A stretch of DNA of 60,326 nt from Frankia sp. R82 (GTDB lineage: Bacteria; Actinomycetota; Actinomycetes; Frankiales; Frankiaceae), in contig NZ_JAMQQG010000214.1 of assembly GCF_023716925.1 (NCBI RefSeq), positions 1 to 60,326 of the forward strand, in the 5' to 3' direction. Shown here piece after piece: positions 9,096 through 60,102 of this stretch (its first letter is position 1; each line of letters begins with the position of its first letter). The position numbers were made by a program, and so were the translations under genes. The notes under the pieces are model-generated. The model did no database searches. It was not told the origin of the DNA and saw nothing but the letters and a program-made list of their open reading frames with translations.

Positions 9096-9274
9096 CACGA
9101 CTGATCGGGGTGGGGCTGGACCAGTCAGTACCGGAACCATGGGCTGGGGACGTCCGAGACCGGGCGGCGACCGGGGCGCTGATGGCATCCATCCCCTGGG
9201 GTATGAGACGGTCATTCATCGGGTAGCGGCGGTGCACTTGTTGCCGTCGTGGTGGTAGACCTGCTGAAGCGAGC

Positions 9275-9338
9275 CGAAATTGGTTGCCGAAAAATCCGGG
9301 CCGCGGTTGCCGCCGGCGATGAGAGCAATGTTCTACAT
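9275..9338 (-). pseudogene. SDR N-terminal remnant
   Basis: The minus strand from an ATG at 9338 reads M-stop-NIALIAGGNRGPDFSA. This is a decayed copy of the start of the SDR gene at 18320-19057 (MSKIALITGGNRGLGFSAAK), with a stop at codon 2. Only about 20 codons survive. Confidence 0.7.
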
Positions 9339-9466
9339 TTTTCTGTGAGCGCCTTTACCTGCGGTTTCCCCGAGGCGTGGCTGCTGCGACCGTGAGATGT
9401 CGGCGCGATTCCGACGTCACGTTCGCGGCTGCCCGGCGCCCGGAGATGTGGTGGTCAAGACACTCG
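9285..9466 (+). repeat. Long direct repeat, left copy
   Basis: Aligns along its length with 19010-19190 in the same orientation. It covers the SDR start, its upstream region and a coding-like stretch. The last part is the best conserved: about 45 bases from GATTCCGACG onward are identical. The + strand reading (RFRRHVRGCPAPGDV) looks like part of a C2HC zinc finger. The XRE gene on the other strand ends inside this copy. Confidence 0.75.
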
Positions 9467-12544: not shown

Positions 12545-12669
12545 GCTACGGTATTGGCCATGGCCTGCGTCTGAGCCAGATCGCTGAAGCGGACGAACTG
12601 CCGACGAACGACCCATTGGCACTGCTGATCGGCATGGTGCTGGACTGGCAGATCGGACGAACAGGGAAC
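12545..12669 (+). repeat. HhH-5' repeat, copy A
   Basis: Carries the -10-like TACGGT, a mutated start codon (CAT), codons 2-31 of the HhH-GPD gene (GLRLSQIAEADELPTNDPLALL...) and the tail ATCGGACGAACAGGGAAC. Several substitutions make it one of the more diverged copies. Confidence 0.9.
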
Positions 12670-12732
12670 GAAGGCGGATACCGCGTCCTGTTACTCCGCG
12701 GGTGACGGACTCCCAGCGAGGCATGTGATCAC

Positions 12733-14367: not shown

Positions 14368-14490
14368 GACGGTTAGGGCGTTGGACTGCATCTGAGCCAG
14401 ATCACCGAAGCGGACGCGCTGCTGACGAACGATCCGCTGGCCCTGCTGATCGGGATGGTGCTGGACCAGTAGATCGGACAAACAAGGAAC
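14368..14490 (+). repeat. HhH-5' repeat, copy B
   Basis: GACGGT, start codon changed to TTG/GTT, HhH-GPD codons 2-30, then a stop (TAG) exactly where Gln would be, and the tail ATCGGACAAACAAGGAAC. It lies in the 460-bp gap between the LLM and ankyrin genes, which otherwise shows nothing. Confidence 0.93.
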
Positions 14491-14721
14491 TTGCCCGCCG
14501 GAGTCATCATGAGGGCCGCGGTGATGTAACCGCCGTCTGCGCCGTGACTGGGCAGGCCGGCTCCGCACCATCCGGGTGCTAAGATCACTCCGGCGCGCGG
14601 GGCGCCTCCGGTCCGCGGACAGGGCTGAGCCCACCCGAGCAGTGATCGTGGCACGGCACGGCTGTCAGCTGCCTCCTTTCAGCCCGACGTAGCGGACCGC
14701 AGGCGGTGAAAGGAGGTCGCG

Positions 14722-18319: not shown

Positions 18320-19057
18320 CTACCAGGCCACTGGGCCGTTGGCGTCGATGAAGGTTCCCGAATCTGCGTCGGCGGGAAGCATCGCGGCCGTGACCACGAT
18401 CTGCGCCGCTTCGTCGGCGGTCAATGGCGCCTGCTGTCTGTTGATCGGTGTCAAATCAGTCCGAACGAAGCCGGGACACACTGACGTGACCTTGATCGGG
18501 GTACCCTTCAGGCTTTTCGCCAGTTCGACGGCGATGCTGTTCAGCGCGGCCTTCGAGCTTCGGTACGCCGGCAGGAGCATCGAGTAGTACGGCGAACGAG
18601 GGTTGTTCTGGTCTGTGAGTGATCCCATTGTGGACGAGACGTTGACGATCCGACCAGCGACGCTCTCGCGTAGCAGCGGCAGAAAGATCTCCGTCACCGT
18701 CACCGGCCCAAACGTATTGGTCTCGAACGTTTGACGGAAGATATTCGTGTCAGCGAACTCGTGCTCCATGATGTCCGTCGCCTCGGGCAAAATGCCCGCG
18801 TTGTTTACCAGCACGTCGAGTCGGCGGTAACGTTCCCGGATGATCTCGGCGGCGGCTCGTACACTTGCTGGGCTGGTCACATCGAGCTCGACCCAGTCTG
18901 CGGTGAGTCCCTCCTCGTCCAGGATATTGACGGACTTGCGTGCGGCTGCTTCGTCGCGCGCGCCGATAATGACGAGGGCACCAGACCGAGCCAGGGCCTT
19001 GGCCGCCGAAAATCCCAGGCCGCGGTTTCCGCCGGTGATGAGAGCAATTTTCGACAT
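18320..19057 (-). CDS. Short-chain dehydrogenase/reductase
   Basis: This 245-residue classical SDR has TGGNRGLG (residues 8-15), DVTS, NNAG (about 89-92), VNVSS (catalytic Ser) and a YRSSK active site (about 164-168), so it should be enzymatically competent with NADP(H). AAAGGAGC precedes ATG 19057. The 5' end and upstream DNA are duplicated in decayed form at 9275-9466. Confidence 0.9.
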   Translation of the reverse strand: MSKIALITGGNRGLGFSAAKALARSGALVIIGARDEAAARKSVNILDEEGLTADWVELDVTSPASVRAAAEIIRERYRRLDVLVNNAGILPEATDIMEHEFADTNIFRQTFETNTFGPVTVTEIFLPLLRESVAGRIVNVSSTMGSLTDQNNPRSPYYSMLLPAYRSSKAALNSIAVELAKSLKGTPIKVTSVCPGFVRTDLTPINRQQAPLTADEAAQIVVTAAMLPADADSGTFIDANGPVAW

Positions 19058-19190
19058 ACTTCTGCGAGCTCCTTTCTATATGGTTCCCCCGAAGTGTGCC
19101 CGCTGTGACCGTGAAATTCTGGCGAGATTCCGACGTCACGTTCGCGGCTGCCCGGCGCCCGGAGATGTGGCGGTTGAGACACTCGCCGGC
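19010..19190 (+). repeat. Long direct repeat, right copy
   Basis: Counterpart of 9285-9466: SDR start, upstream region and a + strand coding-like segment reading CARCDREILARFRRHVRGC, a C-x2-C-x10-H-x3-C pattern. The segment runs into HhH-5' repeat copy C. Function unknown. Confidence 0.75.
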
Positions 19191-19235
19191 GGCCGCTGTC
19201 TCGTCGGTCGGACCAGGCGCCGTTGCCCTGGTGCC

Positions 19236-19346
19236 GTGGGACTGCATCTGAGCCAGATCGACGAGGCGGACGAGCTGCTGACGAACGACCCGCTCGCGTT
19301 GCTGATCGGGATGGTGCTGGACCCGTAAATCGGACAAACAAGGAAC
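19236..19346 (+). repeat. HhH-5' repeat, copy C
   Basis: Intact GTG start, codons 2-29 of the HhH-GPD gene with the same QIDEADELLTNDPLALLIGM reading, stop TAA at 19326, then tail ATCGGACAAACAAGGAAC. The -10 box seen in other copies is not obvious here. Confidence 0.93.
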
Positions 19347-19452
19347 AGGTCGACGAGTGTCTCCAGACCCGCCGTAGATCGTGTACTTGCCGCGGCCAGA
19401 GCGTGCTCGGTGGGTGAGCGAGTTTCGACCGGTCGGTCCTGGTCGCGGTCCG

Positions 19453-20430
19453 TCAGGGCACGGTGATGACGGCCTTTCCGAGGGCGTGCCCGTGCTCGAT
19501 GTGGCGGACGGCCTCGGCAGCGTCGGCCAGTGGATACGTGCGCCCGATGACCGGACGAAGACTGCCGTCGTCGACGAGCTCGCGGAGCGCGAGCAACTCC
19601 GACCGGTCCTTCTTGGTCGGGAGGATCCGGATCCGTTGCCCGACCACGCCGTTGACGAGCGCGCCGCGCAGCATCGTCCCCACCGCCCCGAACAGGTGGC
19701 CCGGCGAGCCGCCGTCGTTCAGGACGAGAATGCCGTCCGGGGTGAGCGCCCGCCGCAGCCGGGACAGGGGCGTGGATCCAGCGCTGTCGAGAATCACGGT
19801 GTAGGGGTCGCCGACGTCGGTGAAGTCCCGCGACGTGTAGTCGATGGCGTCGGCCGCGCCGAGCGAGCGCACAAGCTCGACTTTCTCGGGGCCGCATACT
19901 CCCGTCACATCGGCGCCGAGCGCCGCCGCGATCTGGATGGCGAAGGTTCCGATCCCGCCGCCGGCGCCGGTGACCAGCACCCGGCTGCCTGGTCCGACCT
20001 CACCGACGTCACGGATCCCGCGCAGCGCGGTCGTCGCCGCGAGCGGCAGCGCCGCCGCCTCCTCGAACGTCAGACCGGACGGCTTGGGTACCACGAGTCC
20101 GGCCGAGGCGAGGGCGAACTCGGCGAACGCCCCGTCGGCGAAGCCCAGCACCTCGTCGCCTGGCCGTATCGTCCGCACCTCCGCGCCGACGTCCACGACG
20201 GTCCCGGCCGCGTCGACGCCGGCCACCCGGGATCTCGGCCGGCGCAGCCCGGTGCCGCCCATGAGCCGCGCCACGTAGGGGTCACCGCGCACGACATGCC
20301 AGTCGTACGGGTTCACGGCCGCGGCGTGAACCCGGAGCAGCACCTCGTCGGGGCCCGGTCGCGGCACGTCGAGGTCGGCCAGCTGGAGCGTGTCCGGCGG
20401 CCCGTACCGCTCCTGGGCGATCGCCTTCAT
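19453..20430 (-). CDS. NAD(P)-dependent alcohol dehydrogenase / quinone reductase
   Basis: The 325-residue medium-chain dehydrogenase without the catalytic zinc has an N-terminal GroES-like domain (MKAIAQERYGPPDTLQL, VNPYDWHVVRG, AGVDAAGTVVDVG) and a Rossmann domain with VTGAGGGIGTFAIQ (about 148-161). The C-terminal GHALGKAVITV is typical of zeta-crystallin-like quinone oxidoreductases. I chose ATG 20430, five codons inside the longest frame, because family members start MKA. No regulator is adjacent. Confidence 0.88.
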   Translation of the reverse strand: MKAIAQERYGPPDTLQLADLDVPRPGPDEVLLRVHAAAVNPYDWHVVRGDPYVARLMGGTGLRRPRSRVAGVDAAGTVVDVGAEVRTIRPGDEVLGFADGAFAEFALASAGLVVPKPSGLTFEEAAALPLAATTALRGIRDVGEVGPGSRVLVTGAGGGIGTFAIQIAAALGADVTGVCGPEKVELVRSLGAADAIDYTSRDFTDVGDPYTVILDSAGSTPLSRLRRALTPDGILVLNDGGSPGHLFGAVGTMLRGALVNGVVGQRIRILPTKKDRSELLALRELVDDGSLRPVIGRTYPLADAAEAVRHIEHGHALGKAVITVP

Positions 20431-20655
20431 CGGAGCCCGCCCCACCGGGACATGGCCCGTTGGGTGCCCCGCGCAACCCTCGCGCGCCGCGAGCCCGCGG
20501 CCCGCTCGATCGTCGTCATGAGGTCGATCGTCGCGCCGCGCGGGCCGCGCCTCATCGGCCCCGAGGCTCGACCCGCGTCATCCTGGCGGCCAGGCGAACT
20601 CGTTCTTTCGGCCGAGGCGTCCCCCGCTGGGCGAGGTCAGGCTGCCGGGCACCCA

Positions 20656-21366
20656 TCACCGTCGACGTCTGGGACGGCGGCGCGGACCGACCGGCTCGGA
20701 GCCGTGCGTGACGCGGCCGGTCGCGAACGCCCAGATCGCAATCTCCACCCGGTTTCGGGCGTCGATCTTGGTCATCAGGCTCGCGACGTGGGTCTTGACG
20801 GTGCTGAGTGAGATGTGGAGATCATCGGCGATCTCGCCGTTGGTGCGCCCGCGAGCCACGGTCAGCAGGATCTGCTCCTCGCGATCGGTGAGTGGGTCGA
20901 GCGGCTGCGCGGGTGGCGAGGCGGGCCCAGCGTTCGCGAAGGCGCCGAGAAGCCGCGCCGTGACGCTCGGCGCGATCAACGCGTCGCCGCTCGCGGCGGC
21001 GTGCACCGCCTGAGCGAGCAGCGTCGGCCCCGCGTCCTTGAGGAGAAACCCCCGAGCACCCGCCTGAAGCGCGGCGTAGACGTACTCGTCGAGGTCGAAC
21101 GTGGTGATGACGACGACGGCGAGCGGATCCTCGACAGACGGTCCGGCCAGGGCACGAGTCGCCTCCACACCGTCGGTCCCGGGCATGCGGATGTCCAGCA
21201 GGCACACGTCAGGGCGCAGCCGCTGGGCGAGCGCGATGGCCTGTCGTCCGTCGGCCGCCTCGCCGACGACCTCGATCCCGGGTTGCGCGTCGAGGATCAG
21301 GCGGAGCCCGGTGCGGACGATCTCCTGATCGTCGGCGACGAGCACACGGACCGGATGATCGGTCAC
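20656..21366 (-). CDS. NarL/FixJ family response regulator
   Basis: The 236-residue protein has a receiver domain with the phosphoacceptor Asp in CLLDIRMPG and the Lys of GFLLKDAGP, and a C-terminal LuxR HTH (LTDREEQILLTVARGRTNGEIADDL, STVKTHVASLMTKI). GTG 21366 overlaps the TGA of the upstream kinase gene, indicating translational coupling. Its target genes are not evident locally. Confidence 0.92.
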   Translation of the reverse strand: MTDHPVRVLVADDQEIVRTGLRLILDAQPGIEVVGEAADGRQAIALAQRLRPDVCLLDIRMPGTDGVEATRALAGPSVEDPLAVVVITTFDLDEYVYAALQAGARGFLLKDAGPTLLAQAVHAAASGDALIAPSVTARLLGAFANAGPASPPAQPLDPLTDREEQILLTVARGRTNGEIADDLHISLSTVKTHVASLMTKIDARNRVEIAIWAFATGRVTHGSEPVGPRRRPRRRR

Positions 21367-22484
21367 GCCACTGTGCCCGTCCGGGGCAGCATCGCGGTCA
21401 CGAGCCAACCCCGCCGCGGGCCGGGCCCGGCCTCGCAGGTTCCGCCGAGCAGGCGTGCTCGCTCCCGCATGCCGAGGATTCCGTAACCTGGCGCGGCATC
21501 AGGGCGCGCCTCGTCCGCGGCGCCGTCGTCGAGCACCCGCAGCCATACCTCCCTGTCGTCGGCGGCGACGCGTACCTCGATGCGGGTGGCGCGCCGCGCG
21601 TGCCGGCGGGCGTTGGTGACCGACTCCTGGGCCAGCCGAAAGATCGCGGTGCTCACCAGGGGCGGGACGCCCGCGATGTCGCCGAGAACCTCCACTTCCA
21701 CGGCTGGACCGCCCACGCCGGGACGGGCAAGACTGGCAAGGTCGGCGATGCCCGGCCCGCCGGTCCGGCCCTCGTGGCGCAGGAGGTGGACCATCCCGCG
21801 CATCTCGGCGAGCGTGCGGGACGCCTCGGCCGCGATCACGTGCAGCGCGTCGGTCGCCGCGCCCGGATGCGCATGCGCCGTCGCGAGGCCGGCCTGCGCG
21901 CGGACCGCGATCGCCGAGACGTGATGCGCCACCGTGTCGTGCAGGTCGCGCGCGAGCCGTTCCCGCTCCAGCAACGCGGCCTGGTCGAGCTCGCGCCGAC
22001 GCGCTGCGGCCCGGAACCGCAACGCCGCGCCGATCGCCAGCGCCGCCGACAGCACGCCGAACCCAGCGGGAAGATCACCCAGGCCATCGCTGCCGACGAG
22101 CTGCGCGGACATGACGCCACCGGCCACGGCCACGGCTCCCACGGCGATGTCACCAGCGGTGCCCCACCGAGTCAGCGAGAACGGCACCAGCAGTGCCGCC
22201 GCCGTGACGTCCAGATCCGGAATGTGCGTTCCCGCCGCGAGGGAGCTGACGCCGATCGCGCCGAAGACCATCAGTGCCGTAAGCCTCGGCCGGGTCCGCC
22301 GCAGCAACAACGGCGGCATCAGACCGGCGGCGACGATGACGGTCAGGGCCCGGTCAGGTACCCCCGGCCGCAGGAGCCCTTCGAGGATGGCACCCGCGAC
22401 GAGCAGACCCACGAGCGGCCCATCCCACCATCGCGGAGGCGGTGGTCGTGCCTCGTCCCACCCCGAAGGCGGACGGAAAGGCAC
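21363..22484 (-). CDS. Two-component sensor histidine kinase (HisKA_3)
   Basis: The 373-residue protein has several N-terminal membrane helices (about residues 24-160), the HisKA_3 phosphoacceptor motif RDLHDTVAHH (about 192), and an HATPase domain (FRLAQESVTNARRHA, GYGILGMRERARLLGG). Partner of the overlapping response regulator. The stimulus is unknown. Confidence 0.92.
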   Translation of the reverse strand: MPFRPPSGWDEARPPPPRWWDGPLVGLLVAGAILEGLLRPGVPDRALTVIVAAGLMPPLLLRRTRPRLTALMVFGAIGVSSLAAGTHIPDLDVTAAALLVPFSLTRWGTAGDIAVGAVAVAGGVMSAQLVGSDGLGDLPAGFGVLSAALAIGAALRFRAAARRRELDQAALLERERLARDLHDTVAHHVSAIAVRAQAGLATAHAHPGAATDALHVIAAEASRTLAEMRGMVHLLRHEGRTGGPGIADLASLARPGVGGPAVEVEVLGDIAGVPPLVSTAIFRLAQESVTNARRHARRATRIEVRVAADDREVWLRVLDDGAADEARPDAAPGYGILGMRERARLLGGTCEAGPGPRRGWLVTAMLPRTGTVA

Positions 22485-22588
22485 CAGATCAGCATACGCA
22501 GCGCGAGATGGCCGCCACGCGAATCCGCGTGCCTCGTCGAGACGCAGAATCAGGATGCGGCCAGGGCCTCGACGCGGGCGGCGCCGGG

Positions 22589-22693
22589 ATGCGCCGCGAC
22601 ATCATCGCCACCGTCATCGAGGCCGTGGTGCTGTCCAAGGCCGATAGACCGAAGAACCGTTTTGACCCGGATCGCGTCACCGTGATCTGGTGA
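22589..22693 (+). pseudogene. C-terminal scrap resembling a serine recombinase
   Basis: The reading RRDIIATVIEAVVLSKADRP, then KNRFDPDRVTVIW and stop, has the look of the extreme C-terminus of large serine recombinases, whose ends often carry FDPDRV..W. No catalytic domain is nearby. The stop overlaps (GTGA) the beginning of an NYN-domain remnant, with CTGGTGA at the junction fitting both genes. Confidence 0.4.
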
Positions 22694-23013
22694 CGGTGGT
22701 ACGTCGACAGTTGCGGTACCCGAAGGGCTGGCCGGTTGAGCCTGCCCAGGAGAAGGGCATCGACGTGGCGCTGGCTGTCGACTTCGTGCGCCTCGCCTGC
22801 GAGGACGCCTATGACGTCGGCATCCTGTTCAGTCGTGATACCGACCTGGTGCCTGCCCTGGAAGCGGTTCGCGGCCTCGAGTCCGGTGCTGTCCACGTCG
22901 AGGTCGCAAGCTGGGCTGGTGCGAGCCGGATTCGCTTCCCTGGCTCTCAGCTTCCGTGGTGCCACTACCTGGGCGCCGACGACTACGAGGCATGCCGCGA
23001 CGACACTGAATTA
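22690..23013 (+). pseudogene. NYN-domain (LabA/DUF88-like) protein, C-terminal part
   Basis: The reading has TVVRRQLRYPKGW, VALAVDFVRLACEDAYDVG, ILFSRDTDLVPALEAV, WAGASRIRFPG and PWCHYLGADDYEACRDD. The conserved Asp residues of NYN RNase-like domains (AVDFV, SRDTDL) are present. The N-terminal third with the first catalytic Asp is missing and is replaced by the recombinase-like scrap. A matching N-terminal piece lies at 55421-55619. Confidence 0.7.
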
Positions 23014-23382
23014 CACGTTGGTCTGACCGGGAGTGCGGGTGGATGGTCGGCGACGTCCCGTCAACGTGCGGTACAGCGACAGACCGGCCAGGAAGAGCGC
23101 GAGGACGGCGGGGCCGACGTGCACGGTGATAAACCCGATGTAGTAGGGGCCGCCCCACGCGTGTCGGTAGGTCTCCGGCCTGCCGGGGTGCTCGGCGGCG
23201 AGGATGTATCCGGCCCGTGCGACGAGGAAGGCGCCGGCCGCCAGGAGTAGTAGGCGGGCCGCCGCGCGCAGTAGTCGGGAGCCCCGGCCGTCGGCTGGCG
23301 GTCGCGCGGACCGGCGGGCGGCGGTCCGACCGGCCGCGATCAGGCCCGCCGCGACCAGCGCCGCGACGATCAGACCCGTCAT
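23011..23382 (-). CDS. Small membrane protein
   Basis: This 123-residue protein has predicted transmembrane stretches at about residues 3-20, 40-62 and 82-105 and a basic tail. It starts within the stop of the upstream gene (ATGA overlap at 23379-23382), so it is the third gene of a PadR-led operon. Function unknown. Confidence 0.65.
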   Translation of the reverse strand: MTGLIVAALVAAGLIAAGRTAARRSARPPADGRGSRLLRAAARLLLLAAGAFLVARAGYILAAEHPGRPETYRHAWGGPYYIGFITVHVGPAVLALFLAGLSLYRTLTGRRRPSTRTPGQTNV

Positions 23383-23738
23383 GCCGGCTCAGGTCTGCGG
23401 CGCTGGATGCGCAGTCTGGCCACGGAGCCGGCTACCAGGGCTGATGGTGTCAGGACCGCAGCCAGTGCCAATGTCCGGAGCGGGGTGGTGGGGGCCCAGA
23501 GGATGTTGTCGGTCAGCCCTGCCCGCAAAGCCACGATTTCGATGGCGGCCGTCGCGAGTGCCCATGCGGCAACCTGGGTGAGGCGCGGCCTGGCCTGAAG
23601 ACGGAGCCCGGCGGCGTGGCGCAGGACGTCGATGACGGCGACCAGGGTCAGGGGAGTGTCCTGGAGGAGCGCGGCGAACTCGTCGCCGTAGCGCGCTCGC
23701 CATTTCCTGGGATACAGGGCGAGAAGGATGCGTCTCAT
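23379..23738 (-). CDS. Uncharacterised membrane protein next to PadR
   Basis: The 119-residue protein begins MRRILLALYPRKWRARYGDE, a conserved start of actinobacterial proteins encoded beside PadR regulators, followed by two or three hydrophobic helices. It overlaps the PadR stop by ATGA. The role may be as a membrane partner of a PadR-regulated transport or signalling unit (inference). Confidence 0.7.
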   Translation of the reverse strand: MRRILLALYPRKWRARYGDEFAALLQDTPLTLVAVIDVLRHAAGLRLQARPRLTQVAAWALATAAIEIVALRAGLTDNILWAPTTPLRTLALAAVLTPSALVAGSVARLRIQRRRPEPA

Positions 23739-24058
23739 GCCTGGGCCAGCCGTGACTTTCCGGTCTGGACGACCCGGGACCAGGTCGCCAGCTGGGCGGC
23801 CAGGGCCGCTCTCCCTGCTGCCGTGATCTCGTAGGGGCGGCGGCGGTCGTCGCTTGGCAGCGCGGCGATCAGGCCGCGTTCGACCAGCTTGGTCAGGGAG
23901 CCGTACAGGGTGCCGGGACCGAGCCGGACTCCGGTCTGTTCCAGCACATCCGCGGTGATCGCGTAGCCGTGTTTGGCGCCGTCGCTCAGTGACAGCAGGA
24001 TCAGAACTCCCGGCTCGCCGAAGCGGGCCAAGCCCTCGTCCCGGCCAAATCTCGCCAT
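23735..24058 (-). CDS. PadR family transcriptional regulator
   Basis: The 107-residue protein is essentially one winged helix (GEPGVLILLSLSDGAKHGYAITADVLEQTG, PGTLYGSLTKLVERGLI, RRPYEITAAG) with a short C-terminal helix. ATG 24058 lies inside a 24-bp palindrome and 7 bases after TACGAT on the minus strand, so the mRNA is probably leaderless and self-repressed. First gene of a three-gene overlapping operon. Confidence 0.85.
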   Translation of the reverse strand: MARFGRDEGLARFGEPGVLILLSLSDGAKHGYAITADVLEQTGVRLGPGTLYGSLTKLVERGLIAALPSDDRRRPYEITAAGRAALAAQLATWSRVVQTGKSRLAQA

Positions 24059-24076
24059 GCGATGCATCGTATGGCG
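24053..24076. promoter_or_regulatory. PadR operator overlapping the start codon
   Basis: Near-perfect palindrome CGCCATGCGATGCATCGTATGGCG (one mismatched pair), covering the PadR start codon and its -10 box. It predicts tight autoregulation. Confidence 0.65.
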
Positions 24077-24235
24077 TAGTAGTCGGCGCGGCAAGGCGCG
24101 AAGCTGCCCTGAAATCCCTGACTCACGGCGACCGCGGTGACTCCGCCCGGGCGCCGGCGATCGGGTGGAACGGGGCGCGACGACGTCGACCGCGCGGCGG
24201 CCGGGCCGGCGATGTGACGGCTGCGCCGGCCCGGC

Positions 24236-24358
24236 TACCGTGACTGGCGTGGGACTTCACCTGAGCCAGATCCCCGAGGTGGACGAACTGCTGACCAAGG
24301 ACCCGTTGGCGCTCCTCATCGCCATGGTGCTGGACCAGCAAGTCAGACAAATAGGAAC
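24236..24358 (+). repeat. HhH-5' repeat, copy D
   Basis: TACCGT -10-like box, intact GTG at 24249, HhH-GPD codons 2-31 (QIPEVDELLTKDPLALLIAM) and tail GTCAGACAAATAGGAAC. The frame stays open to 24458, giving a possible 69-residue product with a non-HhH tail. Confidence 0.93.
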
Positions 24359-26197: not shown

Positions 26198-26460
26198 CCC
26201 TGTTGTGTTCCGGGTGCTCTGGACGTCCCACGGACTGGGTCGTCGCCTGCACGATCGGATCGTGAGGAGAGCTCGCGGAGGGGCACGGAAGGAACGAGCG
26301 GAACGCCGAACTCGCAGGGGTCGATCAGTCCTCGACACGGGAGTCGGCTTTGTGCGTCCCTGCCTGCTGTGCCCGGCGCAGTCCCCGCAGGGCCGCCGCG
26401 GCGCCCGCAGCCAGACCCACGACGCCGCCGATGGCCCAGCCTCGGGTGGCTGCGACACCG

Positions 26461-26512
26461 ACGAACGACCCGTTGGCGCTGCTGATCGGGATGGTGCTGG
26501 ACCAGCGGATCC
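26461..26512 (+). repeat. HhH-5' repeat, copy E (partial)
   Basis: Only TNDPLALLIGMVLDQ codons remain (acgaacgacc to accagcgg). The 5' end with promoter and start is lost, and the expected tail is unclear. Between 26198 and 26550 nothing else is recognised. Confidence 0.85.
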
Positions 26513-26550
26513 CGGGAAGAACGAGTGGGAGTGGGCGGGACCGCCGCGCG

Positions 26551-28796: not shown

Positions 28797-28853
28797 CTGT
28801 GGTGCCAGTACTCGGGCGCCGTCGACTGCGAGGTGTGCCGGGACGACGCGGAG
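28797..28853 (+). pseudogene. NYN protein C-terminal scrap
   Basis: The reading LWCQYSGAVDCEVCRDDA matches PWCHYLGADDYEACRDDT of the NYN remnant at 22690-23013. It ends about 60 bp before the start of HhH-5' repeat copy F, which suggests that the ancestral order was NYN gene then HhH-GPD gene. Confidence 0.55.
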
Positions 28854-28900: not shown

Positions 28901-29023
28901 TACGGTTGTGCGGTGGGACTGCACCTGAGCCAGATCGACGAGGCGGACGAGCTGCTGACGAACGATCCGCTGGCGCTCTTTATCGGCATGATTCTGGACC
29001 AGCAAGTCGGACAAACAAGGAGC
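28901..29023 (+). repeat. HhH-5' repeat, copy F
   Basis: TACGGT, intact GTG at 28913, HhH-GPD codons 2-31, tail GTCGGACAAACAAGGAGC. The frame continues to 29050, a possible 45-residue peptide. Confidence 0.94.
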
Positions 29024-29099
29024 GACGGCTGGCCGATGCGTGTGCGCTGACCTGCTTGCCCAATGAAGATCCACCATCGGAACGCGGCGACCAAGTGTT

Positions 29100-32930: not shown

Positions 32931-33044
32931 TACTGTGATGACGTGGGACTGCACCTGAGCCAGATCGCCGAGGCGGACGAGCTGCTGACGAACGATCCGT
33001 TGGCGCTGCTGATCGGGATGGTGCTGGACCAGAAGATGTCGTAA
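32931..33044 (+). repeat. HhH-5' repeat, copy G
   Basis: TACTGT, intact GTG at 32943, HhH-GPD codons 2-30 nearly unchanged, then KMS and stop at 33044, giving a 33-codon ORF. The tail is degenerate or absent. This is the last orphan copy before the full gene 1.7 kb downstream. The surrounding 32657-33215 shows no other gene. Confidence 0.93.
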
Positions 33045-33215
33045 AGGTGGAGTGGGACGATCTACGTCTGTCGGTGGTAACCCTTGCCGGTCACGCCTGG
33101 TGCCGATCCGGCGCTGGTGCTGGGAGAGCCAACCGAGATCATTGCTGCACTGCCGTACCCGATCTTCCCTGGATGTGTGACCGGTCGCCGCGTCGGCTCC
33201 GGGTCGTCCGGGGGC

Positions 33216-42624: not shown

Positions 42625-44205
42625 ATGAAGACTTCGATGAAAACAACGACAACGATGACGGCGCCGGTGTCGGCACCCGCGATGACCGCGGCGCGTCGGC
42701 TGGCCGCCGCTGTGGCGGCGGCCATGGCGTCGGCGCTCCTGTTCCACCTGGGTACTGGGTTGCGGCCCCACCCTTGGCTCATCTGGCTCGCGCCCCTGCC
42801 GGTGCTCTCGGTGGCCCTTCGCCGTAGCGCCCGTGCAGCGTTCGCCATCGCATTCATCGCGTGGCTCGGCGGGGAAAGCCAACTGTGGGGTTACTTTCTG
42901 GGAACGCTGGATATGCCGCCACCCGTGGTCGCGTCGATCCTCATCGGCACGGCGTTGGCGTTCGGGCTCGCGGTCGTCGGGACCAGGACCCTGCTCGTGC
43001 GGCGGCGGACGCTGACCGCGGCGTGCTTCCTGCCCGTGACGTGGGTCGGCCTCGAGTACCTGCTGTCCTTGACGATGCCGCATGGTGCGTGGTGGAGCCT
43101 GGCCTACACCCAAGCCGACCTGCTCCCGGTGCTGCAGACCGTGTCGGTTACCGGCCCGTGGGGCGTGACCTTCCTGGTCCTGCTGGTCCCGAGCGCGGCG
43201 GCGGTACTGCTCGTGCCAGGCGTGGCCGGCCGCGTGCGTGTCGCCACGGTCGCCGTGACCCTGCTGGCCGTGGCACTGGGATACGGCGGCTGGCACCTGG
43301 CCCGGGCCCCCGGCCGGCAGCCGGGAAAGGTGGCGCTGATCGCCGCCGACCAGCCCGACGACCCGATCTCCCTCGCCACTCCCGCCGGTCGCGATCTGCT
43401 GGACCGTTATCTTGCCCGCGTCCGGGACGTGGCCGCGAACGGGGTTCGCGTCGTGGTCATCCCGGAGAAGGTCTTCGCCGCGGACGACAGCAGCCTGCGC
43501 GTGCTCTCGGAACCGATGGTTCGCCTCGCCGCGCAACGGAAGGTCGACGTGGTCGTCGGGTTGGTGCTCACCCGCGGCGGGTCAGCCCACAACGCCGCGA
43601 TCGAGTTCCAGGCCGGCCAGAGCCGGCCGGCCGTTTACCACAAGCGTCACCTCATTCCCGGAGCCGAGGACGACCTGCGTCCTGGTGACGAACCGGTTCT
43701 CGTCCCTGGCCCCGCAGGGGAGTGGGCGCTCGCGATCTGCAAGGACATGGACTTCCCCACCCTGGTCCGCGACTACCGGCGGCGCGGCGCGGTGGGCGTC
43801 CTCGTGCCCGCGTGGGACTTCGGCAGTGACGGGTGGCTGCACAGCCGCATCGCCGTCACCCGGGGCGTCGAGAGCGGCGTCGCTGTCGCCCGGGCAGCCC
43901 GCAGGGGCGACCTGACGGTCAGCGACCCCACCGGCCGGGTGCTGGGCGAGACACGCAGCGACGCGGCCCCCATCGCCGCCGTGGTCACCGCGCTGCCCTC
44001 CCCTGCCGCCCCCACCCTGTACGCCAAGCTCGGTGACTGGTTCGCCTGGGCCTGCCTGATCGCGCTCGCCGCCGCACCTGCATCACTACGCCGCTCACAC
44101 GACAGATGTACGGTCGAGCGAAATGCGGCCTCCGCCGCAAACGCGTCCTCATCGCCTCCGACTCGACACAGGTCGACTACGGTGAAGGCGTCGGACTGCA
44201 CCTGA
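42625..44205 (+). CDS. Membrane carbon-nitrogen hydrolase, Lnt-like
   Basis: The 526-residue protein has about six N-terminal membrane helices (residues 25-235) and a nitrilase-superfamily domain with the triad Glu (VVIPEKVF, about 277), Lys (YHKRHLIPGAE, about 340) and Cys (AICKDMDFP, about 375). It resembles apolipoprotein N-acyltransferase in layout, but CKDMDFP differs from the usual CYE of Lnt. The last few residues (TVKASDCT) and the stop are encoded by HhH-5' repeat copy H, so the original C-terminus has been replaced. Confidence 0.82.
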   Translation: MKTSMKTTTTMTAPVSAPAMTAARRLAAAVAAAMASALLFHLGTGLRPHPWLIWLAPLPVLSVALRRSARAAFAIAFIAWLGGESQLWGYFLGTLDMPPPVVASILIGTALAFGLAVVGTRTLLVRRRTLTAACFLPVTWVGLEYLLSLTMPHGAWWSLAYTQADLLPVLQTVSVTGPWGVTFLVLLVPSAAAVLLVPGVAGRVRVATVAVTLLAVALGYGGWHLARAPGRQPGKVALIAADQPDDPISLATPAGRDLLDRYLARVRDVAANGVRVVVIPEKVFAADDSSLRVLSEPMVRLAAQRKVDVVVGLVLTRGGSAHNAAIEFQAGQSRPAVYHKRHLIPGAEDDLRPGDEPVLVPGPAGEWALAICKDMDFPTLVRDYRRRGAVGVLVPAWDFGSDGWLHSRIAVTRGVESGVAVARAARRGDLTVSDPTGRVLGETRSDAAPIAAVVTALPSPAAPTLYAKLGDWFAWACLIALAAAPASLRRSHDRCTVERNAASAANASSSPPTRHRSTTVKASDCT

Positions 44206-44262
44206 GTCAGATCGCCGAGGCGGACGAGCTGCTGACCAACGACCCGTTGGCGCTGCTGATCT
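44178..44262 (+). repeat. HhH-5' repeat, copy H
   Basis: TACGGT, start codon mutated to GTC, HhH-GPD codons 2-24, cut off after CTGCTGAT with no tail. It supplies the stop codon of the overlapping carbon-nitrogen hydrolase gene in another frame. Confidence 0.92.
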
Positions 44263-44362
44263 GCACCGGCTCCCCGGTTCCGGTCTGACGGGAGCCAGGG
44301 TCACCCCAGCCGGAGCGAGCGCGCTACCGCGAAGTCGCGGTCAGTGAGTTCGATGTCGGGTG

Positions 44363-44393
44363 TTGACCTTAAGTTAGCTTGAAGTCCTAACCT
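44363..44393 (+). promoter_or_regulatory. SoxR-like MerR-type promoter
   Basis: TTGACC, a 19-bp spacer, TAACCT, then 7 bases to the ATG at 44401. The spacer holds CCTTAAGTTAGCTTGAAG, 15 of 18 positions of the SoxR box CCTCAAGTTAACTTGAGG. The 19-bp spacing and the dyad are hallmarks of SoxR/MerR control. No soxR gene is in this part of the window. Confidence 0.7.
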
Positions 44394-44400
44394 CGTCTGT

Positions 44401-44817
44401 ATGATCTTTACGGATGCTGAGAGTCGGTTTCTGACTCGCCAGGAACGCGGCCACCTGTCGACCATCGGCGCAGCGGGCTGGCCGCAGGTGAAGCCGCTCG
44501 GCTTCGCCTACAACGCTGCCCTGGAAACGATCGACATCACGGGGTACGCCATGGCCAGCAGCGCGAAGTACCGCAACGTCCAGGCCGTTCCGCGCGTCGC
44601 GTTCGTGGTGGACGAGGTGACCGAGCCGACTGCTCAGGGCGCGCATTTCCTGGAGATCCGCGGCATCGCCGAGACGGTTACGCACGTGTCTACCGACCCG
44701 CACCTCGATCCCGAGATTATCCGGATTCGTCCGCTGCGCGTGATCGCCTACAATGTTGGTCCCGACCAGCCCGGTCTGTATGCCCGCAACGTCACCGACC
44801 AGACCGCGGGGGCGTGA
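44401..44817 (+). CDS. PPOX class F420/flavin-dependent oxidoreductase
   Basis: The 138-residue split-barrel protein has HLSTIGAAGWPQVKPLGFAYN (residues 18-38), KYRNVQAVPRVAFVVDEV and RIRPLRVIAYNVGPDQPG, the pattern of pyridoxamine-oxidase-like F420-binding enzymes. Leaderless from the SoxR-like promoter. First gene of an operon with a quinone reductase 4 bp downstream, consistent with redox-cycling stress defence. Confidence 0.87.
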   Translation: MIFTDAESRFLTRQERGHLSTIGAAGWPQVKPLGFAYNAALETIDITGYAMASSAKYRNVQAVPRVAFVVDEVTEPTAQGAHFLEIRGIAETVTHVSTDPHLDPEIIRIRPLRVIAYNVGPDQPGLYARNVTDQTAGA

Positions 44818-44821
44818 CCCG

Positions 44822-45802
44822 ATGCGTGCTATCGAGGTAAGCCGTTTTGGCGGCCCGGAGGTCCTGGTTCCCGCACAGGTTCCCGATCGTGTCCCGGGCT
44901 CGGGGGAGGTCGTCATCGCGGTCAGTGACATCGACGTGATGTTCGTCGATGTCATGATCCGAGCTGGCGCGGGAGTGGGAATCTTCCCGATCGAGCCTCC
45001 CTACATTCCAGGCAACGGTGTCGGCGGAGAAGTCGTCGGGGTGGGAGGCGGGGTTGACGCCGACTGGTTGGGTCGGCGGGTCATCGCGCACACGGGAGGG
45101 CCTGGCGGATGGGGAGGCTATGCCGAGCAGGCCGTTGCCGCCGTAAACGAGCTTGTGGCGGTTCCGGACAGCGTTGATCTGACCAACGCCGTGGCGGTGC
45201 TCCACGACGGGCCGACCGCCCTGAGGATCACCGAGCTTGCCCGAGCCGAACCGGGGCAGTGGATTCTGGTTCTGGGCGCGGCGGGAGCTATGGGCATCCT
45301 GCTCGTTCAGCTTCTTCGTCGCCGCGGAGCACGCGTCATCGGCGCGGCACGCGGCACGGTGAAGCTGGATGCCGTGACCGCCGCCGGTGCCGAGGCAGTC
45401 GTCGACTACAGCGACCCGGCCTGGACCGACCAGATGCTGGAGGCGACCGGAGGCACGCGTCCCGGCGTGGTCCTCGACGGAGTGGGCGGGAAGCTCGGCC
45501 TGGAGGCCTTTGCCCTGGTCGCCGACAACGGCCTCTTTTCCGCCCATGGCGCACCCAGCGGCGCCTTCACCCAGGTCGACCCCGATAGTGCCCGCGGTCG
45601 CGGGATCACGATCACCGGCATTGGCGAGCTACAGCTTTCAACCGCCGAACGAGCCCGCCTCGCCGGGCACCTGCTGACCGAGCTCGCCGCGCAGGTACGC
45701 CCGGTCATCGGACAGATGTTCCCACTCGCTCAAGCCTCCCAGGCTCACACGGCGATCGAGAACAGGCGCTCGATCGCCAAGACTCTACTGACGACGGGAT
45801 GA
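44822..45802 (+). CDS. NADPH:quinone reductase-like oxidoreductase
   Basis: The 326-residue zinc-free medium-chain dehydrogenase has a GroES-like domain (MRAIEVSRFGGPEVL, PYIPGNGVGGEVVGVG), Rossmann LVLGAAGAMGILLVQLLRRRG (about 143-163) and C-terminal SIAKTLLTTG. Genes of this type are known SoxR targets in Streptomyces; the upstream promoter supports the same here. From 45803 to 46060 I see no gene. Confidence 0.9.
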   Translation: MRAIEVSRFGGPEVLVPAQVPDRVPGSGEVVIAVSDIDVMFVDVMIRAGAGVGIFPIEPPYIPGNGVGGEVVGVGGGVDADWLGRRVIAHTGGPGGWGGYAEQAVAAVNELVAVPDSVDLTNAVAVLHDGPTALRITELARAEPGQWILVLGAAGAMGILLVQLLRRRGARVIGAARGTVKLDAVTAAGAEAVVDYSDPAWTDQMLEATGGTRPGVVLDGVGGKLGLEAFALVADNGLFSAHGAPSGAFTQVDPDSARGRGITITGIGELQLSTAERARLAGHLLTELAAQVRPVIGQMFPLAQASQAHTAIENRRSIAKTLLTTG

Positions 45803-46060
45803 TCGGCCTGCCGAAGTGGAGCCCGGCACGCCGGCGCACGATGAACGACGGAGCGTGTCCGTAGCGAGCAGCAGCGACCGCTGGTCAGGGCCACCGTCAG
45901 CTAACCGAACAGCGGTAGCCAACCATGTAGCCAAGCCCGCGGAGATTCACGGACGACGACGGCCAGCAGCGGAACCGGCCCCAGGCCCGGCTGCCTGTGG
46001 ACGAGCCCGGACATCGGCGGACGGACCGAACTGACTCTTTGCACGGCGATAATTGAGGGC

Positions 46061-46282
46061 ATGGGTTATGCCCTGCGCGTCGTAGGCTGGCCTACTTTCG
46101 ACAGGCAGGACGAACCTTTGGAAATCGTCCTCGGTCGGAGGGAATCTGATCATTTCCTGATCCGGGTCGTCGGGCGCATGTACCCGGAAGCCGGGGATTG
46201 CTGGGATGGCAACTGGCTGATCAGCCCCATCACTGCTGATCTGTCTGGCTTCACCGTCAACCTTGACGCCGCCCTCCGGGGC
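46061..46282 (+). pseudogene. Truncated WapI/DUF5959-like protein
   Basis: The reading MGYALRVVGWPTF, LEIVLGRRESDHFLIRVVG, YPEAGDCWDGNWLISPITA, FTVNLDAALR resembles the N-terminal half of small WapI-type or DUF5959 proteins (family call from memory). GATAAT 7 bases before ATG 46061 would allow leaderless expression. After about 74 codons the sequence becomes unrelated and runs into an HhH-GPD scrap. Confidence 0.45.
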
Positions 46283-46374
46283 GTGGCCACAACTGCCACG
46301 GATCGTTGTCTCGGTACGGGCGTCGGCGTCGTCGGCGGATGCGCTCAAGGCCCGCGCGGAGGGCGAGGACCTCC

Positions 46375-46450
46375 GTGGCGCTGCTTGGCAAACAACTCGG
46401 AGTCACCCCGCCTGGCTGGCGAAGAGGGCTCGAAAAAAGTTCGGGCCCGG
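46375..46450 (+). pseudogene. Internal HhH-GPD gene scrap
   Basis: The reading VALLGKQLGVTPPGWRRG equals codons 132-149 of the HhH-GPD gene (VALLGKQLGVTPPGWREA), in the same + orientation. It shows that recombination scattered more than the 5' end. Confidence 0.85.
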
Positions 46451-46477
46451 TGTCGGATCGGGGTGGAGGCGTTCGTA
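46451..46477 (+). promoter_or_regulatory. Candidate ECF42 promoter
   Basis: TGTCGG, 17 bases, CGTA, about 55 bp before the DGPF gene. It matches the TGTCGA / CG(A/T)C pattern reported for ECF42 sigma factors, suggesting self-activation of the module. Confidence 0.45.
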
Positions 46478-46531
46478 GGAGTGGTGAGCGGCGCCCGCGG
46501 GGGCATCCCGAAGCAGAGGAGACGAGCCGAG

Positions 46532-46867
46532 ATGCAGTACCTGGTTTCCGTGATCGACAACACCCACAACCTGATCACCGCCGAGGAGGAGGCTGCCGAG
46601 CAGGCTGCCATCGACGTGTTCAACGAGCGGCTGCAGGCCGAGGGCCACTGGGTCTTCGCGGGCGGTCTCGGGGTGCCCGACAACGCCACGGTCATCGACA
46701 ACCGCGGCGAGGAGGCGGTGGTCACCGATGGGCCGTTCCTGGAGTCGAAGGAGTACCTCGCCGGCTTCTGGATCATTGACGCGCCCGACCTCGACGTCGC
46801 GCTGAAGCTCGCCGCCGAGGGATCGAAGGCCTGCAACCGCAAGATCGAAGTTCGGCCGTTCCATTGA
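46532..46867 (+). CDS. YCII/DGPF domain protein
   Basis: The 111-residue ferredoxin-like fold protein carries the DGPF motif (VVTDGPFLESKEYLAGFWII). Genes of this type accompany ECF42 sigma factors; their biochemical role is unclear. AGAGGAG precedes ATG 46532. Stop overlaps the sigma factor start. Confidence 0.9.
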   Translation: MQYLVSVIDNTHNLITAEEEAAEQAAIDVFNERLQAEGHWVFAGGLGVPDNATVIDNRGEEAVVTDGPFLESKEYLAGFWIIDAPDLDVALKLAAEGSKACNRKIEVRPFH

Positions 46868-48096
46868 GCACCCCCGACGTCCGGGAAGCGATCACCCACG
46901 TCCACCGCGCGGAGTGGGCGTGGGTGATCGCCGCCCTGACCAGGCGATTCCGTGACCTTGACCTCGCCGAGGAGGCAGCGGCCGAGGCGTTTGCGACCGC
47001 CGTCGAGCGGTGGCCGGCCGAGGGCATACCTGCGAACCCCGGTGCCTGGCTGACCACCACGGCCACCCGCAAGGCCCTCGACCGGATCCGGCGGGAGAAC
47101 AAGCGTGACCAGAAACAGAGGGAAGCTCGGATGTTGCACGACAACGGGCCACCCGAGCCCCTCGGTGCCATCGACGACGACCGACTGCGACTGATCTTCA
47201 CCTGCTGTCATCCGGCGCTCGAGATGCGGACCCGGGTGGCACTGACCCTGCGCATGGTCGGCGGTCTGACCGTGCCCGAGATCGCCCGCGCCTTCCTGGT
47301 GGAGGAGGGCGCGATGGGACAGCGGATCACCCGCGCGAAGGCCAAGATCAAGGCCGCCCGCATCCCGTACCGGGTGCCGTCCGCGGAGGATCTCCCGGCC
47401 CGGGTGTCCGGCGTGCTCGCCGTCCTGTTCCTCGTCTTCAACGAGGGCTACCTGGTGAGCGGCCCCGGTACCGATCCCATCCGCCGTGACCTGACCGCCG
47501 AGGCGATCCGGCTCACCCGCCTGGTGCGTGTCCTCCTGCCACAGTCCGGCGAGGTCGCCGGACTGCTCGCGCTGATGCTGCTGACCGAGGCCCGCAGCGC
47601 TGCCCGGGTGTCGGCCAGCGGCGAACTCGTCGCCCTCGGCGAGCAGGACCGCGGAGCCTGGGACGGCACACTGATCGCCGAGGGGCACCGGTTGGTGCGT
47701 GAGCGCCTGGCCACCGGGGTGGCTCCTGGTCGCTACCAGATCCTCGCGGCGATCAACGCGGTGCACACCAGCGCCCGCGACATCCGCGACACCGACTGGT
47801 CGCAGGTTCTCGCGCTCTACGACCAGCTCGTCCGCCTCGACCCGTCGCCGATCGTCGCTCTCAACCGGGCTGTCGCGGTCGCCGAACTGGACGGACCGCA
47901 GGCGGCGCTGGCCGCCGTCGACCGGCTCGAGGACAGCCTGGCCGGCTACCACGCCTACCACGCGACCCGCGCCGACCTGCTGCGCCGGCTGGGCCGTAGC
48001 GAGCAGTCGCGCGCCGCGTACGACCGGGCCATCGAACTGGCCGGCAACACCGCCGAGACCGCCTACCTGACCCGCCGCCGCGACCAGCTGGCGTAG
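46864..48096 (+). CDS. ECF42-type RNA polymerase sigma factor
   Basis: The 410-residue protein has region 2 at about residues 10-80 (DLDLAEEAAAEAFATAVERWP, NPGAWLTTTATRKALDRIRR), region 4 at about 118-165 (LRMVGGLTVPEIARAFLVEEGAMGQRITRAKAKI), and a long C-terminal extension with TPR-like helices (ALNRAVAVAELDGPQAALAA, DLLRRLGRSEQSRAAYDRAIEL). No anti-sigma factor is adjacent, as usual for ECF42. TTG start overlaps the DGPF stop (TTGA). Confidence 0.92.
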   Translation: MSTPDVREAITHVHRAEWAWVIAALTRRFRDLDLAEEAAAEAFATAVERWPAEGIPANPGAWLTTTATRKALDRIRRENKRDQKQREARMLHDNGPPEPLGAIDDDRLRLIFTCCHPALEMRTRVALTLRMVGGLTVPEIARAFLVEEGAMGQRITRAKAKIKAARIPYRVPSAEDLPARVSGVLAVLFLVFNEGYLVSGPGTDPIRRDLTAEAIRLTRLVRVLLPQSGEVAGLLALMLLTEARSAARVSASGELVALGEQDRGAWDGTLIAEGHRLVRERLATGVAPGRYQILAAINAVHTSARDIRDTDWSQVLALYDQLVRLDPSPIVALNRAVAVAELDGPQAALAAVDRLEDSLAGYHAYHATRADLLRRLGRSEQSRAAYDRAIELAGNTAETAYLTRRRDQLA

Positions 48097-48194
48097 CGCC
48101 GCAGGGTCGTCACAGCGGTCGCCCCCGGCGACCCGGCCCAGGTCTCCACCGGTGATCCAGCCGGCACCGGCATCGGACCGCCCGTGGGGCCCGG

Positions 48195-50380: not shown

Positions 50381-50406
50381 GCCTGGTAGCCACCCTTCGC
50401 CTGAAT

Positions 50407-50451
50407 TAACCGGTGAGTTCAGAGGCTAGCACGGCCTGAACTCACCGGTTA
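50407..50451. promoter_or_regulatory. TetR operator, perfect 16-bp inverted repeat
   Basis: TAACCGGTGAGTTCAG, 13-base spacer, CTGAACTCACCGGTTA, between the MFS and TetR genes. It covers the TAGTCT -10 box of TetR and probably both promoters. Confidence 0.8.
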
Positions 50452-50461
50452 GTCTTGACGC

Positions 50462-55420: not shown

Positions 55421-55619
55421 ATGACCCCACGAGTCGCGGTCTTCATCGACTACCAGAACGTTCATTTCTCGGCGCGAAGCAGGTTCCTGCCGGCCGACGC
55501 GTCACGTCACCACGGTCATGTTGATCCTGGCCGGGTGGCCGAGCGGATCGTCGCCGGTCGCCGGTCGCCGGTCGCCGCTTCGGTGGCGAGTTGACGTCCG
55601 TCCGGATCTATTATCAAGG
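55421..55619 (+). pseudogene. NYN-domain protein, N-terminal part
   Basis: The sequence starts at ATG 55421 as MTPRVAVFIDYQNVHFSARS with the first catalytic Asp of NYN domains (FIDYQNV), continuing VDPGRVAERIVAGRR. Four tandem GTCGCCG heptamers at 55550-55577 shift the frame; beyond them RFGGELTSVRIYYQ is readable in another frame. It then joins directly to the HhH-GPD C-terminal codons. Confidence 0.7.
55550..55577 (+). repeat. Heptanucleotide tandem repeat in NYN gene
   Basis: Four copies of GTCGCCG. Two copies would restore the frame (IVAGRRFGGELTSVRIY), so expansion from two to four explains the frameshift. Confidence 0.7.
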
Positions 55620-55663
55620 TCCGCGAATTCAAGAAGCAGATGAAGGCCGCTGCCAAGGCGTGG
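55618..55663 (+). pseudogene. HhH-GPD C-terminal scrap
   Basis: The reading VREFKKQMKAAAKAW equals the end of the HhH-GPD protein (VREYKKAMKAAAKAG). It directly follows the NYN N-terminal scrap, so a deletion has joined the two genes. From 55664 to 55932 nothing else is recognised. Confidence 0.8.
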
Positions 55664-55932
55664 TCTACCTGAGCGCTCTCCGGGCGGCGCATAGCTATGC
55701 ATATCCATCGGACGACCTGCGCGGCGAGACCGCACAGCCCCCTTCTGCGGCATCTTCACGAGTGCCTGTAGTCGGCGAGCACCGCCTGGCATATGAGCGC
55801 GAACGCCTGAAGCTCATCCTCACCGGCGGCGACGGCGGTCATCGACGGATGACGGGCGCCGGCCTGGTCCGCTGCGGCCCTCTCCTCGACGTGGTTGGCC
55901 GGCTCTCGTTCACAGAATCGTCGAATTCCTCC

Positions 55933-57780: not shown

Positions 57781-57861
57781 CGGGTCAGAGCCGCTCCGGC
57801 GGGCGTCCTGACTACGTGCTTCGCTGGTCTGCCAGAGCTGGCGAGGCTTATCGGCTACGGC

Positions 57862-57900
57862 ATGCCCCCGCAGGTCACTGTCTTCGTCAACGACCAGTAG
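57862..57900 (+). pseudogene. NYN protein start scrap
   Basis: The reading MPPQVTVFVNDQ-stop, preceded by ATCGGCTACGGC, matches the NYN start at 55421 and its upstream bases. It is joined to HhH codons a few bases later. Confidence 0.6.
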
Positions 57901-57902
57901 CG

Positions 57903-57950
57903 CCGCTGATCGAGATGGTGCTGGACCGGCAAATCAGATGAACAGGGAAC
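57903..57950 (+). repeat. HhH-5' repeat, copy I (3' part)
   Basis: Only HhH codons 23-31 (LIEMVLDRQ) and the tail ATCAGATGAACAGGGAAC remain, fused behind the NYN start scrap. Confidence 0.85.
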
Positions 57951-58048
57951 CCGTGGAGCTACCCGGGGACCAGGCGACCTGCTCGCCGCCGCGGCTACCG
58001 CGATCGCGTGGCGCAGGGCCTCGGGGCGACGCGTGCCCATGGCTCCGA

Positions 58049-59758: not shown

Positions 59759-59930
59759 TCCACATCAAGATGACGATCGGGCGACCCTCAGATCGTCACC
59801 CGGGAAGCGAGAAGTCGCCGTTGTCTGCGACGCCTGGCACAGGCGGCCCGGCCGAGCCCGTCACCCGCCGCGGGCCGCGGGCCAGCGCCTGCGGGCTGAC
59901 CATCGAGACATGCTCGGCTGCGGGTGTGCA

Positions 59931-60040
59931 GCGGGACTTCACCTGAGCCAGATTGCCGAGGCCGACGGGCTGCTGACGAAAGACCCGTGGCGCTGCTGAT
60001 CGGGATGGTTCTGGACCAGCAAGTCGGACAAACAAGGAAC
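59931..60040 (+). repeat. HhH-5' repeat, copy J
   Basis: Start codon mutated to GCG, HhH codons 2-31 with a 1-base deletion (CCCGTGG for CCCGTTGG), and the full tail GTCGGACAAACAAGGAAC ending at 60040. The rest of 59760-60102 shows no gene. Confidence 0.92.
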
Positions 60041-60102
60041 GATCGGTAGGCGGAGCCCAGTGTCGACGGCCTGCTTCGGTCGGGGCCGGTCGTCGGCGGA
60101 AC

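Follow-up and report, generated by a model that had tools for sequence, protein, structure and literature searches.

The recombinase-like reading frame at positions 22589-22693 of the window, by which we mean the whole 60,326-nucleotide stretch of Frankia sp. R82 DNA analysed here, is a non-functional remnant of the 3' terminus of a large serine recombinase (LSR) gene, which probably belonged to the kind of element that repeatedly inserted cassettes into an HhH-GPD gene. The value of this scrap is the array to which the relic points. Our best reading of that array is a serial, LSR-mediated insertion of cassettes that would rebuild their target gene, in a manner similar to the staphylococcal cassettes (SCC) but at another target.

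The frame translates as MRRDIIATVIEAVVLSKADRPKNRFDPDRVTVIW followed by a stop, with FDPDRVTVIW as its last residues, and the proposal of the initial annotation that this peptide is an LSR C-terminus proved correct: positions 22591-22690 align with an LSR gene of genome G010 at 95 of 100 identical bases, and the scrap protein is 94% identical to one G010 copy (E 4.4e-16) and 70-73% identical to two G010 copies and one G020 copy. The 34-residue reading finds matches at E <= 1 in 24 of the 117 genomes searched; strong ones (E < 1e-9) number five, of which three are in G010, one is in G020 and one is the window's own copy. The observation is thus borne out in part, with details of the joint corrected. 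In DNA alignments, the LSR match stops at 22690 and the NYN match sets in at 22689 (L036) or 22690 (L035), leaving an overlap of GG at most instead of the shared CTGGTGA proposed earlier; and because the G010 LSR runs two codons beyond the Trp codon before its own stop, the stop in the window, formerly taken as that of the recombinase, is NYN sequence. Local DNA alignment found no LSR sequence upstream of 22591, and neither tblastn nor DNA alignment found a resolvase catalytic, Recombinase or zinc-ribbon domain in the scrap; as judged from its sequence, it is an LSR remnant and not an LSR.

The other side of the joint is, as had been claimed, the middle of an NYN-domain gene, of which codon 88 is the first that remains. 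The protein read from 22690-23010 fits PF01936 at E 1.5e-8 over profile positions 72-124 of 145, so that the window copy holds only part of the domain; an intact relative covers positions 1-122. The remnant shares 93% identity with an NYN gene of G003, and the DNA homology extends rightward past the NYN stop into the following sequence. The window NYN is a pseudogene, as codons 1-87 are lost and one base is inserted near the end; the LSR part and the NYN part are both dead, and neither half can be a working gene.

The statement that the NYN gene flanks HhH-GPD agrees with the arrangement in relatives, in some of which NYN lies ~50 bp upstream of the intact HhH-GPD gene and in others ~200 bp behind an attachment (att) site. 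Of 14 NYN starts, eight follow an att site at a distance of 196-224 bp; one of the eight, the G020 copy, starts 302 bp from the HhH junction and 221 bp from a site with both arms (P.P'). In G003 and G002, palindromic P.P' sites (L073 near 15648, L075 near 9440) likewise precede a full-length NYN gene by ~220 bp, and elements of this sort may carry NYN as a regular component. One intact NYN protein (L073:15873-16466) matches the PADLOC candidate HEC-09 over 45 residues at E 1.1e-8, and a defence role for NYN could be considered. Within the window, an NYN start shortly before an HhH-GPD 3' end at 55421-55689 represents a second NYN/HhH rearrangement.

The relatives of the scrap identify the enzyme family. 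The longest G010 copy, read over 498 aa, matches PF07508 (E 8e-11), PF00239 in part (from profile position 49) and, below threshold, the PF13408 zinc ribbon, as well as the phage integrase family phrog_95 (E 5e-56); a frame upstream of it resembles an IS transposase, by eye only. That a recombinase may have used the HhH-GPD locus, as the initial annotation suggested, fits the surroundings of the four nearest relatives (three in G010, one in G020): their stops lie 47, 61, 61 and 66 bp before the start of HhH-GPD 5' halves that carry the junction, an inverted repeat is visible by eye in the gap, and LSR-type att sites occur both in the window and in relatives. Among the collected LSR loci, mostly with 1.5 kb of flank on each side, only these four and the window adjoin HhH-GPD at E <= 1e-3. 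All four copies seem truncated, at the front or inside; counting the window scrap, none of the five LSR copies linked to HhH looks complete, and a functional enzyme is thus missing from the set. No intact cognate recombinase was found in the window strain's own genome, which has no match to this LSR at E <= 1e-20 and whose six other PF07508 places all lie off the window's contig. In the tests made, the scrap remains the sole integrase trace in the window: Pfam recognized no LSR among the 30 window ORFs scanned, and tblastn with two LSRs found no further integrase trace. Searches of public genome contigs and viral contigs with the G010 LSR confirmed no relative. We infer that an LSR of the scrap's type performed the insertions described below.

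By site profile, the window holds 12 HhH-GPD 5' sites, one of which is the intact gene at 34682 (Table 1). The copies are direct, lie on the + strand and comprise the first ~30 codons; most of the non-intact ones break at CTGGACCAG and continue into a foreign arm, of which there are two main types. The initial annotation had left the scrap unlinked to this surrounding array. Contrary to the order in most relatives, three of the ten attL-like window fragments lie downstream of the intact gene, as does one each in G025 and G026. Two HhH 3' scraps (46357 and 55618) also lie downstream of it, in the region 44188-60044, and their broken 3' ends suggest that a second copy was once there. Outside the HhH fragments, a 187-bp direct repeat (9280-9466 vs. 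18999-19185, 83% identical) perhaps represents two copies of a cassette's own end.

Table 1. Features of the window that bear on the HhH-GPD array and on the LSR/NYN joint
Feature	Coordinates	Strand	Evidence
Weak att remnant, core and arm only	9096..9147	+	nhmmer 20.5 bits
attL remnant, HhH-GPD 5' half and type-1 arm	12561..12673	+	Repeats, site profile, arm typing
attL remnant, type-1 arm	14377..14493	+	Repeats, site profile, arm typing
attL remnant, type-1 arm	19232..19351	+	Repeats, site profile, arm typing
Cassette between two att remnants: LSR/NYN fusion with ADH, LuxR-type response regulator, histidine kinase and a PadR gene cluster	19352..24244	+	att profile, Pfam
LSR 3'-end remnant, last ~33 codons without the final two codons and stop	22591..22690	+	DNA and protein homology to G010/G020 LSRs
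NYN remnant from codon 88, N-terminal part missing, 1-base insertion near end	22689..23010	+	PF01936, DNA alignment to L035/L036
attL remnant, degenerate type-1-like arm (untyped by script)	24245..24358	+	Repeats, site profile
attL remnant, 5' part lost, type-2 arm	26448..26530	+	Repeats, site profile, arm typing
attL remnant, type-1 arm; NYN 3' scrap just upstream at 28800-28853	28910..29026	+	Site profile, arm typing
attL remnant, type-2-like arm	32939..33058	+	Site profile, arm typing
Intact HhH-GPD gene (target), 191 aa	34682..35257	+	PF00730 E 8.4e-10; only full copy found in genome
HhH-GPD 5' fragment cut before junction, downstream of intact gene	44188..44263	+	Site profile
HhH-GPD 3' fragment, residues 127-151	46357..46431	+	Homology
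NYN N-terminal fragment, first 48 residues, 98% to G003	55421..55564	+	tblastn-type homology
HhH-GPD 3'-end fragment beside NYN fragment	55618..55689	+	Repeat D11, 74%
att remnant joined to apparent NYN start (by eye), downstream of intact gene	57840..57953	+	Site profile
attL remnant, type-1 arm, downstream of intact gene	59928..60044	+	Repeats, site profile, arm typing

The array pattern is common to many members of a plant-associated bacterial family, in whose sequences the homologies, the breakpoints, the att arms and their order can all be read. Among 35 family genomes, the HhH 5' peptide is present in 2-11 copies in 25, in one copy in nine and in none in one; among 82 non-family genomes, it occurs exactly once in each of the 40 that match. 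In 19 family stretches (those with an unbroken junction, chosen from earlier search matches, contigs without one being left out of the totals; site class set by the profile matched, 5' or 3', at >= 25 bits), the unbroken copy has 62 of the 67 attL-like sites on its upstream side and five on its downstream side, and all 13 attR-like sites are downstream of it. The G003 copy counted as unbroken has an internal deletion (residues 1-81 and 143-189), and that of G001, a genome of the same genus as the window strain, carries a stop, with a second, broken G001 copy outside the fetched part. As ~373 kb upstream and ~303 kb downstream were examined, the attL/attR split does not come from uneven coverage. 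The att-like sites of these stretches number 80 on the strand of the target gene and one on the other, i.e. the cassettes stand in tandem and in one orientation.

The anatomy of the sites adds to this. Over 63 HhH 5' copies, intact ones included, conservation climbs near −18, spans the 5' coding part and ends with the arm at ~+110; a TACGGT-like box near −18 in these copies may be a −10 promoter element. Some genomes also contain 3'-only HhH fragments, which start near GACCAG and have the arms in reverse complement before them; P arms are the reverse complements of P' arms. Both arms are present together at three sites (G003, G002 and G020), which share one common dyad centre that was reached by 0 of 2000 column shuffles, the sites having been picked because both arms are visible. 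With two misanchored sites removed before arm profiling, P' carries the arm motif 5 bp more distant from the junction than B' does (identity 0.443 at +5, next 0.331; best of 11 shifts); in a coarser column-profile test, +5 was again the best of 12 shifts, at a value below the 95th percentile of shuffles (observed −0.422, percentile −0.408). A motif offset of 5 bp between attP and attB is reported for LSR sites (PMC3783163). A dyad in attB was not supported, as with 19 unbroken copies the shared centre ranked fourth of 26. Together, these att features point to an LSR more firmly than does the scrap alone.

The exact type-1 arm (18 bases) occurs at 14 loci in public genome contigs, five of them titled Frankia, and at none in viral contigs. 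An HhH half precedes it at four of the five Frankia loci and at none of the other nine, which leaves 10 of the 14 loci without it; we give the nine non-Frankia loci no weight because an 18-base pattern can arise by chance in so large a collection. Six Mesorhizobium records (L113, L114, L116, L117, L120 and L122) carry the arm in one common context without HhH, probably a coincidence.

A serial insertion of this kind could proceed as follows. The LSR would recombine a putative circle with the HhH-GPD gene at the breakpoint; the circle would bring its own promoter and an HhH-GPD 5' half (a 3' half in other elements) beside the foreign arm; the insertion would give the gene a new half, and the old half would stay behind as a fossil att site, either as 5' half plus P' upstream (attL) or as P plus 3' half downstream (attR); and the rebuilt gene would again be a target, such that cassettes would stack in one orientation. 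Because each insertion would replace half of HhH-GPD, one intact gene would persist between the attL and attR fossils. The weakest step of this gene-restoring model is its requirement for an attL × attB reaction, which, to our knowledge, the studied LSRs do not perform.

The fusion itself can be understood from the order of genes in two other genomes. G020 has an LSR end, an HhH 5' half that continues into B' as far as residue 48, the P.P' site and then NYN; one G010 copy has an LSR, an HhH 5' half with arm and then NYN ~1.3 kb on. In the element, the LSR would accordingly end on one side of the att site and NYN would begin ~200 bp beyond the other. Given the G020 order, the joint in the window is most simply explained by a deletion across the att site: a single event of ~0.7 kb (~0.73 kb by comparison with G020) would have removed everything from the last codons of the LSR through the HhH half and the att site to codon 87 of NYN, with GG left at the joint.

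We considered whether the fragments could have arisen by nesting: an element with a complete HhH-GPD gene and a normal P.P' attP site would split the resident gene and leave a new intact gene between its halves. P.P' sites do exist, the attR-like 3' halves are without exception downstream of the unbroken copy, and the LSR-linked HhH copy of G020 extends beyond the junction. Such nesting, however, predicts equal numbers of attL and attR, whereas 67 and 13 are seen; the ratio is 6:0 in G010, 5:0 in G021 and 4:0 in G024, despite 37.6, 19.6 and 21.7 kb examined downstream; and the innermost arm types, compared by eye, differ in three of six stretches (G007, G020 and G011 disagree; G008, G013 and G019 agree). 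The strict form of nesting is disfavoured because of the unequal attL and attR counts, and we consider this explanation unlikely.

Unequal homologous recombination or transposon-borne duplication could also scatter 5' fragments, in which case the LSR scrap would be an unrelated pseudogene. Ordinary rearrangement has evidently taken place too, as seen from the window's NYN start beside HhH ends and from the fragments downstream of the intact gene; but the single breakpoint of most copies, the inversion of the arms between attL and attR and the LSRs directly before HhH halves in two genomes make it quite improbable that such processes account for the array. We attach even less probability to the view that the fusion forms a working chimera or a novel reading frame: an 83-aa ORF ends at the joint and a 186-aa ORF starts at GTG 22690, but the LSR part amounts to only ~33 codons, the NYN part is without its first 87 codons and is disturbed by the inserted base, and the two parts are in different frames. 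A chance resemblance of the peptide to an LSR end might be suspected from its behaviour in isolation, as the profile search with the 34 residues alone matched no Pfam and no PHROG family; phages matched only at E 6 with 33-36% identity (all four under genes annotated serine integrase or integrase), and plasmids only at E 8-10 (three under oxidoreductase-type or dehydrogenase-complex genes, one, in Nonomuraea, under no listed gene). The DNA alignment, at 95% over 100 bp, together with the protein match to G010 already refutes this suspicion, and its probability is negligible.

The cassettes gathered at the locus would, under serial insertion, correspond to the intervals between sites, which range from 0.43 to 13.6 kb with a median of ~2.7 kb (n=44 in the first set). 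Pfam matched 28 of the 30 window ORFs, among them regulators (MerR, LuxR-type, PadR, AraC-type, TetR, LysR and sigma-70-like), dehydrogenases, hydrolases, a luciferase-like enzyme, a nitroreductase, methyltransferases and an MFS transporter; no integrase, conjugation, tra or rep gene and no tyrosine recombinase was found among these 30 ORFs. The SDR piece of the window is 92% identical to G021 over 768 bp and 91% identical to G033 over 842 bp, and a cassette piece of G020 is 94% identical to G004 over 3204 bp; the HhH 3' halves are 73% identical both in G000/G021 and in G020/G004. Because the cassette pieces are 91-94% alike and the HhH 3' halves only 73%, transfer between genera is supported, with one gene as the yardstick.

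Several known systems resemble the array in part. In SCC arrays, the ccr large serine recombinases act at rlmH and cassettes with and without a recombinase stand in one orientation; the enterococcal cassette chromosome is a further example. The likeness lies in an LSR, one chromosomal gene repeatedly targeted and stacked cassettes bounded by att sites in one orientation; the differences are that the target here is not rlmH but HhH-GPD in Frankia-like actinobacteria, and that insertion falls within the first third of the gene, to which a new 5' half is apparently supplied in rebuilding it. Mobile integrons use a tyrosine recombinase and attC sites and stack mostly recombinase-less cassettes in one orientation at one anchoring gene. 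The array shares this single anchor and this stacking, but its sites are LSR-like and its intervals reach the lengths given above. SXT/R391 ICEs, which are conjugative and use a tyrosine integrase, insert in the 5' end of prfC and supply their target with a new 5' end and a promoter, as we propose here for HhH-GPD, whereas conjugation genes were not seen among the window ORFs scanned. Finally, according to the accessible part of PMC3218068, the AICEs are actinobacterial integrative elements, some with serine recombinases and some in tandem; most Frankia AICEs have an att-tra-rep-int structure, the tandem ones described are in tRNA genes, and "HhH" is absent from that part of the study. A literature search, with most subscription journals outside its reach, found no report joining HhH-GPD with a serine recombinase, attB or Frankia, and a broader search on islands gave nothing more pertinent among the matches listed.

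A wider generalization is possible, which we offer tentatively and with less than even confidence: the HhH-GPD gene of Frankiaceae could be an integron-like anchor run by an LSR, at which small recombinase-less cassettes, each ending in the promoter and 5' half (or the 3' half) of the anchor, moved in trans between genera, each insertion swapping a half and a working repair gene being kept while the array grows, with a second anchor and a sister LSR at the gene described below. If right, this would be a gene-gathering system outside integrons and staphylococcal cassettes, in which one DNA-repair gene took up to ~10 insertions per strain yet stays intact, seemingly because each insertion rebuilds it, and whose locus seems to have let metabolic and regulatory genes pass between genera. 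The set of related candidate LSR sites (attL, attR, attP and attB) should be useful for studies of site choice by these enzymes and of whether some of them escape the usual one-way rule.

A likely second target of this type is an FMN-reductase-like gene. By eye, the sister LSRs of G004 and G002 (C-terminal parts 45% and 56% identical) end shortly before the start of this other gene, and its G017 relative fits FMN_red (PF03358) with a borderline E value of 3e-5. A search with the gene's 57-residue 5' peptide gave a single match per matching non-family genome, apart from two in G108, but 2-4 matches in 10 of 35 family genomes. The extra copies lie on one contig in G004 (on both strands), G019, G026, G032 and G033, and partly so in G009 and G020; second-site loci L149-L153 are on G004:C88, G019:C162, G020:C48 and G033:C279.
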